Below, in pieces: positions 1,471 to 35,205 of a DNA stretch of 64,000 nt (its first letter is position 1; each line of letters begins with the position of its first letter). The notes below the pieces were generated by a model. The model saw only the letters and a program-made list of their open reading frames with translations, did not search any database and had not been told where the DNA came from. The translations under genes were made by a program, and so were the position numbers. This DNA is from Actinobacillus seminis (lineage in GTDB: Bacteria > Pseudomonadota > Gammaproteobacteria > Enterobacterales > Pasteurellaceae). The DNA is taken from positions 248,001 to 312,000 of the forward strand of contig NZ_NLFK01000001.1 of assembly GCF_002263215.1 (NCBI RefSeq), written 5' to 3'.

Positions 1471-2515
1471 ATGAAAACATTGAAAATAACAAAATTATCT
1501 TTACTAATAATATTAGCTACATTTTCTTCAATAACGGTAGCAAATCATCATAATGAAAAAGAGGCGAATATGACCAATATCACACAAAAACAAATGCATG
1601 AAGATATTCGAACAATTTATTTAGCCGGAGGATGCTTTTGGGGAATTGAAGCCTATATGGAGAAAATATATGGTGTGAAAGAGGCAACTTCCGGATATGC
1701 CAATGGTAAAACAAAAATGACATATTATCAAATAATTGGTAGCACAGATCATGCAGAAACAGTACAGGTAACTTATGATGCCAATAAAATTTCATTAGAA
1801 AAACTACTTAAATATTATTTTCAAGTCATCGATCCAACCAGCATTAATAAACAAGGAAATGATCGCGGAAGACAATATAGAACGGGAATTTATTATCAAA
1901 ATAACCGAGATAAAGAGATTATTTTAAAAGAAATACAAGCATTACAAAGCCAATATAAAGATCGTATAACTTCGTATAATGTATGCTATACGAAGTTATG
2001 CAGTCGAAAAAAAAAAAAAAATGTCATATTGATTTAACACAAGCAGATCAAGTAATTATTGATCCGGCAGATTATCCGAAACCAAATGATGAAGAACTGA
2101 AAAAGAAATTAACACCATTACAATATAGTGTAACCCAAAAGAAAATACAGAACATTCATTTAGTAATGAGTATTGGGATAATTTCGCAGCTGGTATTTAT
2201 GTCGATATTACAACAGGTGAACCGTTATTTTCTTCTGATGATAAATATAATTCAGGTTGTGGTTGGCCAAGTTTTACCAAGCCAATTAACAAAGATGTTG
2301 TGCGTTATGCGGAAGACCGAAGTTTTAATATGTTAAGAACAGAAGTATTAAGTCGTAGCGGTAATGCTCATTTGGGACATGTTTTTAATGATGGCCCTCA
2401 AGATAAAGGAGGTTTACGTTATTGTATTAATAGCGCTGCAATTAAATTTATTCCATTAAATCAAATGGAAGATAAAAACTATGGTTATTTGATTCATTTT
2501 ATTAAAGGGAAATAA
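1471..2515 (+). pseudogene. msrAB: Exported methionine sulfoxide reductase MsrAB, broken in this sequence
   Basis: The gene reduces oxidised methionine in periplasmic proteins. It opens with a signal peptide (residues 1-24). The MsrA domain follows, with catalytic GGCFWG at about residues 53-58, and is readable to about 1961. It is then interrupted by a loxP-bearing linker and 15 A (1962-2021). Reading resumes at CHIDLTQAD, so about 30 residues of MsrA usually found between these points are missing. A second break is one missing A in the run at 2137-2140. Adding it restores the MsrB domain with [19 protein letters not shown] and [11 protein letters not shown] to the stop at 2515. Both breaks look like sequencing or assembly faults, so the real gene is probably intact. 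ccdA and a thioredoxin-like gene follow and would supply electrons. Confidence 0.85.
1962..2021. other. loxP-containing sequencing linker plus 15-A run
   Basis: Positions 1966-1999 are a perfect 34-bp loxP: 13-bp arms beginning ATAACTTCG and spacer ATGTATGC. The preceding TCGT makes 38 bases that agree with the 454 Titanium paired-end linker as I remember it. GCAGTCG and a run of 15 A (2007-2021) follow. The block sits inside the MsrA reading frame, replaces about 30 codons and has no recombinase gene nearby. It is most simply untrimmed library linker at a contig join. Confidence 0.85.
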
Positions 2516-2517
2516 TC

Positions 2518-3201
2518 ATGCTTGAACAACAATTACTTATTGGCAGTGTTTTTCTTGCAGGTTTAGCCTCTTTTCTATCCCCTTGTATTTTTCCGATTGT
2601 GCCAGTTTATTTCGGTATATTAAGTAAAGGTGGTAGAAAAATAATAAATACATTTCTATTTATTATGGGGTTATCTGTTACTTTTGTCAGTCTTGGTTTT
2701 AGTTTTGGTTTCTTAGGTGATATATTTTTTAATGATACCGTTAGAATGATTGCCGGAATAATCGTGATTATTTTAGGTATCCACCAATTAGGTATTATAA
2801 AACTTTCTTTCTTAGAACAAACTAAGTTAATTAATATCAAAACAGAAGGCAAAAATGCTTCTCTTGAGGCATTTGTTTTGGGATTAACGTTTAGCCTTGG
2901 CTGGACACCTTGTATTGGACCGATATTGGCTTCTGTACTGGCTTTATCAGGAGATGAAGGAACTGTTTTATATGGCGCTGCAATGATGTTGGTTTATGTA
3001 TTAGGATTAGCAGTTCCTTTTATTATATTTTCATTTTTCTCACAGGAGTTATTAAAAAAATCTAAGTCACTAAATCGCCATTTAAATAAATTCAAAATTA
3101 TTGGTGGCATTTTGATCATATTAATGGGAATTTTATTATTAACAGATAACTTACATAACTTTATAAAAAAAAAAAAAAAAAGAATTTATCGAATGGTATA
3201 A
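2518..3201 (+). CDS. ccdA: CcdA-type thiol-disulfide transmembrane protein
   Basis: This is a polytopic inner-membrane protein of the CcdA/DsbD transmembrane family with about six membrane spans. The two redox cysteines lie in LSPCIFPIVP (about residue 22) and GWTPCIGPIL (about residue 135). It passes electrons from cytoplasmic thioredoxin to periplasmic thiol proteins. The native sequence runs to about NLHNF (position 3163); the last residues, a Lys run then RIYRMV, come from the poly-A artefact at 3165-3181, so the true C-terminus is uncertain. It starts 2 bases after the msrAB stop. With the downstream thioredoxin-like gene it probably recycles MsrAB. Confidence 0.85.
   Translation: MLEQQLLIGSVFLAGLASFLSPCIFPIVPVYFGILSKGGRKIINTFLFIMGLSVTFVSLGFSFGFLGDIFFNDTVRMIAGIIVIILGIHQLGIIKLSFLEQTKLINIKTEGKNASLEAFVLGLTFSLGWTPCIGPILASVLALSGDEGTVLYGAAMMLVYVLGLAVPFIIFSFFSQELLKKSKSLNRHLNKFKIIGGILIILMGILLLTDNLHNFIKKKKKRIYRMV
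3165..3181. other. 17-A run at a probable contig join
   Basis: A run of 17 A separates the end of ccdA from the middle of a thioredoxin-like gene whose start is missing. The length is close to the 15-A runs beside the two loxP linkers, suggesting the same artificial spacer plus native A residues. Confidence 0.65.
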
Positions 3202-6132: not shown

Positions 6133-6973
6133 ATTTCAAACCGGTACGGTAACGGTAATTTTTGGTTGGTTAATTTTCTTTGTATTAGTACCTAACCTCT
6201 TAGTGCTAACCGTCAGTTTCTTAACCCGTGACAGTAATGATTTTTATACGTTACCGTTTACATTGGAAAATTATTCCCGACTTTTTGAACCTCTTTATGC
6301 TCAAGTAGTATGGAATTCATTATATATGTCCGGAATCGCTACAATTATTTGTTTGATTGTAGGTTATCCGTTCGCCTTTATGATTGCCAAAATAAAGCCG
6401 AAATTTCGACCGCTCTTATTGTTTTTAGTGGTGTTACCATTTTGGACAAATTCGCTTATTCGCATCTATGGAATGAAAATTTTCTTAGGGGTAAAAGGAA
6501 TTTTAAATAATGTGCTTGTCAGCTTAGGTATTATTAGCGAGCCGATTCGGATCCTCAATACCGAAGTAGCGGTGATTATCGGTTTGGTTTATCTCTTACT
6601 TCCATTTATGATTCTACCTCTCTACTCCGCTATTGAGAAACTGGATTATCGGTTATTGGAAGCGGCAAAAGATTTAGGTGCCAACGCGTTCCAACGCTTT
6701 ATTAAAATCATTATTCCGCTTACTATGCCCGGTATTATTGCCGGCTGCTTATTGGTGTTATTACCAGCAATGGGAATGTTCTATGTTGCCGATTTATTAG
6801 GCGGAGCAAAAGTATTGTTAGTAGGTAATGTTATCAAAAGTGAATTCCTTATTTCTCGTAACTGGCCTTTTGGATCGGCGATCAGTATCGGTTTAACAAT
6901 TTTAATGGCATTACTCATCTTTATTTACTACAAAGCCAGTAAACTAATGAATAAGAAAATGGAGTTAGAATAA
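6113..6973 (+). CDS. potB: Spermidine/putrescine permease PotB
   Basis: This 286-residue inner-membrane permease has about six membrane spans and the binding-protein-dependent loop [26 protein letters not shown] at about residues 180-205, the EAA motif that contacts PotA. It forms the channel with PotC. It starts within potA and its TAA stop overlaps the potC ATG (TAATG). Confidence 0.93.
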
Positions 6974-7845
6974 TGGGACGTTTATTTCGCTCACTTTTTA
7001 TATTTATAATATATAGTCGTGGGAGGCAAGGCACACAGGGGATAGGAAAAAAAAAAAAAAATGCATAACTTCGTATAGCATACATTATACGAAGTTATAC
7101 GATTATAATATATTCTTTTTTATATATTCCTATTATTATTCTAGTGACAAATTCTTTTAATGAAGATCGCTATGGCTTGACATGGAAAGGATTTAGCTGG
7201 AATTGGTATGATCGCCTATTTAATAATGATACGTTAATTCAAGCTGCGATCCACTCTGTTACTATTGCTTTCTTCGCCGCTACGTTGGCAACGATCGTCG
7301 GAGGATTGACTGCTATCGCACTATATCGCTACCGCTTCCGCGGCAAACAAGCAGTTAGCGGAATGCTGTTTGTTGTAATGATGTCGCCTGATATTGTAAT
7401 GGCTGTATCTTTACTGGCATTATTTATGATCGCCGGTATCTCGCTTGGTTTTTTCTCATTACTTTTGGCTCATATTACTTTCTGCCTACCTTATGTGGTG
7501 GTCACTGTATTTTCTCGTCTTAAAGGTTTTGATTCGACCATGTTGGAAGCGGCAAAAGACTTAGGCGCCGGCGAAGTGACGATTTTACGTAAAATCGTTC
7601 TTCCACTTGCGTTACCGGCAATTATTTCCGGCTGGTTATTAAGTTTTACTATTTCTCTTGACGACGTCGTAGTTTCTTCCTTCGTCAGTGGCGTAAGCTA
7701 TGAGATTCTACCATTGAAGATATTCTCGTTAGTGAAAACAGGTGTAACTCCGGAAGTCAACGCCCTTGCCACAATTATGATTATTCTTTCTTTATTCTTG
7801 GTTATTTTAAGTCAACTTGTTTTATCCAAAGAAAAATCAAATTGA
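6973..7845 (+). pseudogene. potC: Spermidine/putrescine permease PotC, interrupted by an artefact
   Basis: The gene starts at ATG 6973 ([15 protein letters not shown]) and breaks at 7015. It resumes at about 7103 with IIYSFLYIPIIILV and continues to TAA 7845. The open part from 7144 carries four or five membrane spans and the EAA loop [18 protein letters not shown]. Eleven bases are duplicated at the two edges (7004-7014 and 7103-7113). Removing the 88-base foreign block and one copy restores a continuous frame of normal length. The real gene is therefore almost certainly intact and is the second channel subunit with PotB. Confidence 0.88.
7015..7102. other. 454 adapter, 15-A run and loxP linker inserted in potC
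   Basis: Positions 7027-7046 contain CACACAGGGGATAGG and five preceding bases, the reverse complement of 454 Titanium primer B as I recall it. A run of 15 A (7047-7061), TGC and a perfect loxP (7065-7098, opposite orientation to the one at 1966) follow, then ACGA. The 11-bp overlap of flanking potC sequence shows two adjacent contigs joined without trimming. Confidence 0.9.
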
Positions 7846-35189: not shown

Positions 35190-35205
35190 AAAAAAAAAAA
35201 AAAAA
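35190..35205. other. 16-A run at a probable contig join
   Basis: A run of 16 A follows the tRNA operon. The next bases are already inside a nuclease reading frame that lacks its start. The length matches the runs at 2007, 3165 and 7047. Confidence 0.65.

Follow-up and report, generated by a model that had tools for sequence, protein, structure and literature searches.

A scaffold gap written as fifteen adenines, flanked by 454 library residues, in potC of an Actinobacillus seminis assembly

The 88-nt foreign stretch at positions 7015-7102 of the window (the 64,000 nucleotides of contig NZ_NLFK01000001.1 analysed here), which lies inside potC, is almost certainly an assembly artefact, a place where two pieces of an intact potC gene were assembled separately and then joined. 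The observations behind this reading are the elements of the insert, the 61-fold repetition of its A run with a fixed minimum length and strand, library adapters that point only inward, an excess of 99 nt compared with relatives, and an identical arrangement at the N gaps of an unrelated genome. A sequence-only reading had reported a 454 primer remnant, 15 A and an inverted loxP within potC, and all of these elements are present. Its assignment of the artefact to 454 library debris is supported by the data presented below, which add that the 15 A constitute a gap filler of fixed length, found 61 times in the assembly.

The insert and the interrupted gene

The insert can be partitioned without leaving a base unexplained. 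CACACAGGGGATAGG terminates at 7046; next come exactly 15 A (7047-7061), a single T at 7062, GC at 7063-7064, loxP and ACGA (Table 1). The foreign bases sum to 88 (32 + 15 + 1 + 2 + 34 + 4), and a second copy of 11 potC bases, TTATAATATAT, raises the excess to 99, which is also the spacing of the two direct-repeat copies (7004-7014 and 7103-7113). The eleven-base duplication proposed from the sequence is thus present, with the refinement that the 99 bases comprise 88 of foreign origin and the 11 of the second potC copy. The left edge, previously ascribed to the reverse complement of Titanium primer B, does hold an adapter, the match extending beyond primer B to 32 nt (7015-7046). 'Rapid library' and 'Titanium B' are presumably names for this 32-nt adapter. 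The loxP is one of two perfect copies in the window and, as had been claimed, is opposite in orientation to the first (7065-7098 on the minus strand, 1966-1999 on the plus strand); the mean number of perfect loxP sites in 100 shuffles was 0.00.

As 99 equals 3 × 33, the insert does not shift the potC frame, and the break in the assembled gene is an in-frame TAA (7066-7068). The earlier statement that removal of 99 bases restores the frame is therefore imprecise, since the frame is retained throughout and what the insert adds is a stop. NCBIfam PotC matches the open reading frame at 7144-7845 with 404.3 bits (cut-off 326), starting at profile position 27. Upstream of potC are PotA and PotB, both above their NCBIfam cut-offs, while the downstream gene encodes a PotD-like protein with a score below the cut-off (434.2 versus 582).

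Comparison with relatives showed that the two flanks form one uninterrupted gene. In G001 and G002, which belong to the same genus, 5 bases lie between the aligned potC blocks compared with 104 in the window, and in G009 the corresponding values are 39 and 138; all three relatives aligned on both sides of potC therefore lack 99 bases. The distance from the start Met to the NSF motif is 26 residues in all 12 family relatives and in the joined flanks of the window, compared with 27 residues at L132, from another family of the same order (14 loci, L119-L132, were examined and 13 gave rows, L131 yielding none by text pattern). The potC gene of the organism itself is probably undamaged.

Table 1. 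Features of the potC insert and of the other filler junctions in the window
Feature	Positions	Strand	Basis
Start of potC (spermidine/putrescine ABC permease), where the left assembled piece ends	6973-7014	+	26-residue start-M-to-NSF spacing in 12/12 family relatives
11-nt overlap, copy 1, TTATAATATAT	7004-7014	+	Direct-repeat comparison
454 B-type library adapter, 32 nt, pointing inward	7015-7046	+	Reverse complement versus 454 primers; Sediminibacterium salmoneum copies
A15 scaffold-gap filler	7047-7061	+	Run length and strand over 61 runs
T and GC, putative A-tail complement and outer end of loxP circularisation adaptor	7062-7064		Comparison with L052, L063 and L073
Perfect loxP of 454 paired-end linker	7065-7098	-	Pattern search
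In-frame TAA truncating potC in the assembly	7066-7068	+	Frame reading
ACGA, linker inner end, side ligated to genomic DNA	7099-7102		Linker ends loxP + ACGA in PMC5199103
11-nt overlap, copy 2, where the right assembled piece begins	7103-7113	+	
Remainder of potC	7114-7845	+	NCBIfam PotC and comparison with relatives
MsrA/MsrB gene junction: TCGT + loxP(+) + GC + AGTCG (adapter start) + A15	1962-2021	+	
17-A gap filler without adapter, end of CcdA/DsbD-like gene	3165-3181	+	
16-A gap filler without adapter, 23 nt after tRNA-Cys gene	35190-35205	+	

The A run as a gap filler across the assembly

A search of the whole assembly (2,365,053 bases in 22 contigs) for homopolymers of at least 11 A identified 61 runs, every one of them on the plus strand of its contig; the minus strand has none, there being no such T run. 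The shortest of the 61 runs is 15 nt long, so that every one of them contains at least 15 A. Twenty-six are exactly 15 nt, 17 are 16 nt, 11 are 17 nt and seven are longer, a distribution close to that expected for 15 A extended by chance flanking A residues (24.9, 18.0 and 9.7 for lengths 15, 16 and 17, with the parameter fitted to the same data). The same search in 20 other genomes returned between 0 and 7 runs each, both strands together. As a biological homopolymer would not be expected to track the arbitrary orientation of a contig in the assembly, the A runs are not biological homopolymers. The 15 A are a filler of fixed length that joins two contig ends, and neither adapter nor homopolymer noise. 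It follows that two contigs meet at the potC site which overlap by 11 nt and were left unmerged.

To characterize the junctions, 320 nt were taken around each of the 61 A runs, and adapter or linker sequences with a local score of at least 12 were counted within 75 nt. Such sequences occur beside 23 of the 61 junctions. All 16 adapters on the left of a run are forward and all 10 on the right are reverse, so that 26 of 26 point inward and none outward, and no adapter was found farther out within the 320 nt around the 61 runs. The adapter at the potC site conforms to this pattern, as it directly adjoins the gap on its left and points into it. A separate search, in which up to two mismatches were permitted, located 21 adapter-like places, 20 of them no more than 40 nt from an A run; the remaining one, at C20:112168, contains two mismatches. 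Against this, the remaining 38 of the 61 junctions have neither adapter nor linker above the threshold, and only the length and strand of their runs assign them to this filler.

The sequences on the two sides of the filler were also compared. A string of at least 12 nt is shared across nine of the 61 junctions, whereas 60 re-pairings of the ends gave 0.2 on average and never more than 2, and this excess indicates that the contig ends at some junctions have a genuine, short overlap. One of the nine is a pentanucleotide repeat, at L112 (C21:121831-122150), where the gap filler stands within a long TGCGT repeat, which the assembly was probably unable to bridge. At a threshold of 9 nt the signal is less clear (15 of 61, versus a mean of 4.85 and a maximum of 10), and the shared string at potC, at 11 nt, belongs to this weaker range.

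The window contains three further fillers (Table 1), two of which were compared with G002. Where the MsrA/MsrB junction has linker, adapter start and filler, 60 nt in all, this relative has ~91 nt of other sequence, as counted on the alignment, and between the blocks that flank the 17-A filler it has 284 nt. Both fillers conceal real missing sequence. The fillers therefore stand for gaps of differing true size, the gap at potC being negative, an overlap of 11.

Origin of the residues and alternative explanations

The residues on either side of the filler can be related to 454 reagents. In PMC4712552, 454 reverse primers begin with the same 20 nt, CCTATCCCCTGTGTGCCTTG, as the reverse complement of the adapter. 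PMC5199103 prints a 42-nt loxP linker, TCGT-loxP-TACG with its complement, which was employed together with Cre and a Roche circularisation adaptor, and the paired-end protocol, as given in PMC6992861, adds biotin-labelled loxP linkers to both ends of the DNA, followed by Cre circularisation, shearing and ligation of the 454 A and B adapters. The match of the linker is not complete. In the copy at 7065-7102 the inner end, ACGA, agrees with the linker as printed in PMC5199103, but the outer end is GC where the published sequence has CGTA, which counts against a 454 residue; the stretch 7063-7102 is consequently not the full-length recombined 42-nt linker (CGTA-loxP-ACGA). GC also occupies the gap side at L063 and L073, the two remaining full loxP sites of the genome, and as an identical GC end is found at L052 of Sediminibacterium salmoneum, 7063-7102 is designated a loxP-adaptor residue rather than a full recombined linker. 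The GC would represent the outer end of an un-recombined adaptor, and the preceding T the complement of an A-tail. The 32-nt adapter and its 20-nt middle, with which the literature was searched as strings, were found in no paper of the collection searched, an observation that again argues against the 454 assignment. Papers containing the GC-loxP string are among the matches listed for that string. Among the papers listed in searches on this genome or on this type of artefact, none could be tied to it. The short linker ends, AAGTTATTACG, occur at six places in the genome, three of them beside A runs, but as the reversed control occurs at seven there is no excess, and these ends were not used.

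The insert in potC almost certainly arose in the following way. In a 454 paired-end library, biotinylated loxP linkers are ligated to sheared DNA, which is circularised by Cre and re-sheared before the library adapters are added. The left piece retained an untrimmed library adapter at its end, and the right piece an untrimmed loxP adaptor at its start. With a true overlap of just 11 nt, the two pieces remained unmerged and were set side by side, the gap between them being spelled as 15 A instead of N. The letter A was presumably introduced by software or during finishing.

Three other explanations were considered and rejected. Two perfect, inverted loxP sites 5.1 kb apart could be the scars or arms of a Cre-lox manipulation spanning msrAB to potC in an engineered strain. 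The four long open reading frames tested between the sites, however, encode CcdA/DsbD-like, PepT, PotA and PotB proteins and not a marker, and no marker or construct gene is present among the seven tested around or between the sites (MsrA, CcdA/DsbD-like, PepT, PotA, PotB, PotC and PotD-like). Furthermore, a third loxP lies on another contig, all three full loxP sites adjoin an A15 run, and matching anatomy surrounds N gaps in the unrelated Sediminibacterium salmoneum, leaving engineering with a vanishingly small probability. Insertion of a P1-like lox site or a mobile element would be consistent with the 11-bp direct repeat, as a target-site duplication, and with the identity of the loxP of P1 and P7 to that in potC. 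This view is at odds with the finding that, Nonomuraea and Lactococcus phage Q33 excepted, the best 20 of 673 plasmid and 8 of 14 phage records contain loxP with at most one additional base. Similarly, the longest string shared at the 61 junctions ranges from 4 to 72 nt, and not the fixed length of a duplication, and a lox site, with any spacer having the same TA centre, is present in 0 of 20 relatives. A natural insertion is thus so improbable as to be negligible.

The remaining alternative, a chimera in which a single 454 read ran through adapter, poly(A) and linker, the A run being a real homopolymer or a product of dephasing, shares with the preferred reading that adapter and linker are both 454 reagents. 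It is rendered highly improbable by the exact minimum of 15 and the single contig strand in 61 of 61 runs, by the 38 runs that have no adapter or linker, and by the N gaps that occupy the equivalent position in Sediminibacterium. Under the preferred reading, a junction of two assembled pieces, the genes at the 61 joins, potC included, should not be interpreted as pseudogenes, as engineered loxP loci or as poly(A) tracts subject to phase variation. Since the gap is written as 15 A and not as N, it is not counted as a gap, and a filler written in letters is invisible to the usual gap counts. It can be detected simply, from the minimum homopolymer length and the strand bias over all contigs. Scaffold gaps filled with a fixed number of A may constitute a type of error that has received too little notice, a suggestion that we make tentatively; such gaps would escape N-based screens, create false stops, homopolymer tracts and loxP sites, and have already entered a viral collection.

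Comparison with other records

The viral collection concerned is IMG/VR, where contig IMGVR_UViG_2834290966_000001 contains (L142, 2384-2449) the adapter-A15-adapter junction of L088, a locus of the present genome. All 320 nt around this junction are letter-identical, showing that the artefact passed into the collection. The 41-nt T-GC-loxP-ACGA string was not found in the viral scan. Lactococcus phage Q33 (JX564242.1, 17544-17581; L143, 151-188) contains 38 nt of loxP plus ACGA overlapping the annotated start of its portal protein gene, which looks like a linker residue of the same type. A GC-loxP-ACGA sequence is also present in Nonomuraea gerenzanensis (NZ_LT559118.1; L138, 601-640), embedded in G+C-rich sequence at one of six matching places in the record, and is probably a linker residue as well.

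The loxP of phages P1 and P7 is identical to the 34-nt core at 7065-7098. Among the matches listed, P1-type records share this core and at most one further base, and the linker ends and the adapter are absent from them. By contrast, a scan with the 27-nt adapter core of a genome collection that may leave out the window's own records returned 14 stretches, all from Sediminibacterium salmoneum NBRC 103935 (NZ_KI866530.1). At all 14 loci a run of N begins 4 to 6 nt beyond the core, the run consisting of 25 N at 11 of them, and the full 32-nt adapter is exact at eight. Beyond the gap, a loxP linker is present at four of the 14 loci (with one extra base at L055), a reverse adapter at L049, and, at seven loci, a sequence within 120 nt that repeats the left end. 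At L052 the N gap is followed by 41 nt, T-GC-loxP-ACGA, identical to those in potC. This kind of artefact is already known, and what is new here is the use of an A run as the filler, its occurrence at 61 joins in one genome, and a potC that is very probably intact. The two genomes are alike in having the same adapter at contig ends, pointing into the gap, with a loxP linker, a reverse adapter or a repeat of the left end sometimes opposite, and they differ in the gap itself, which is written as N in S. salmoneum and as 15 A here.
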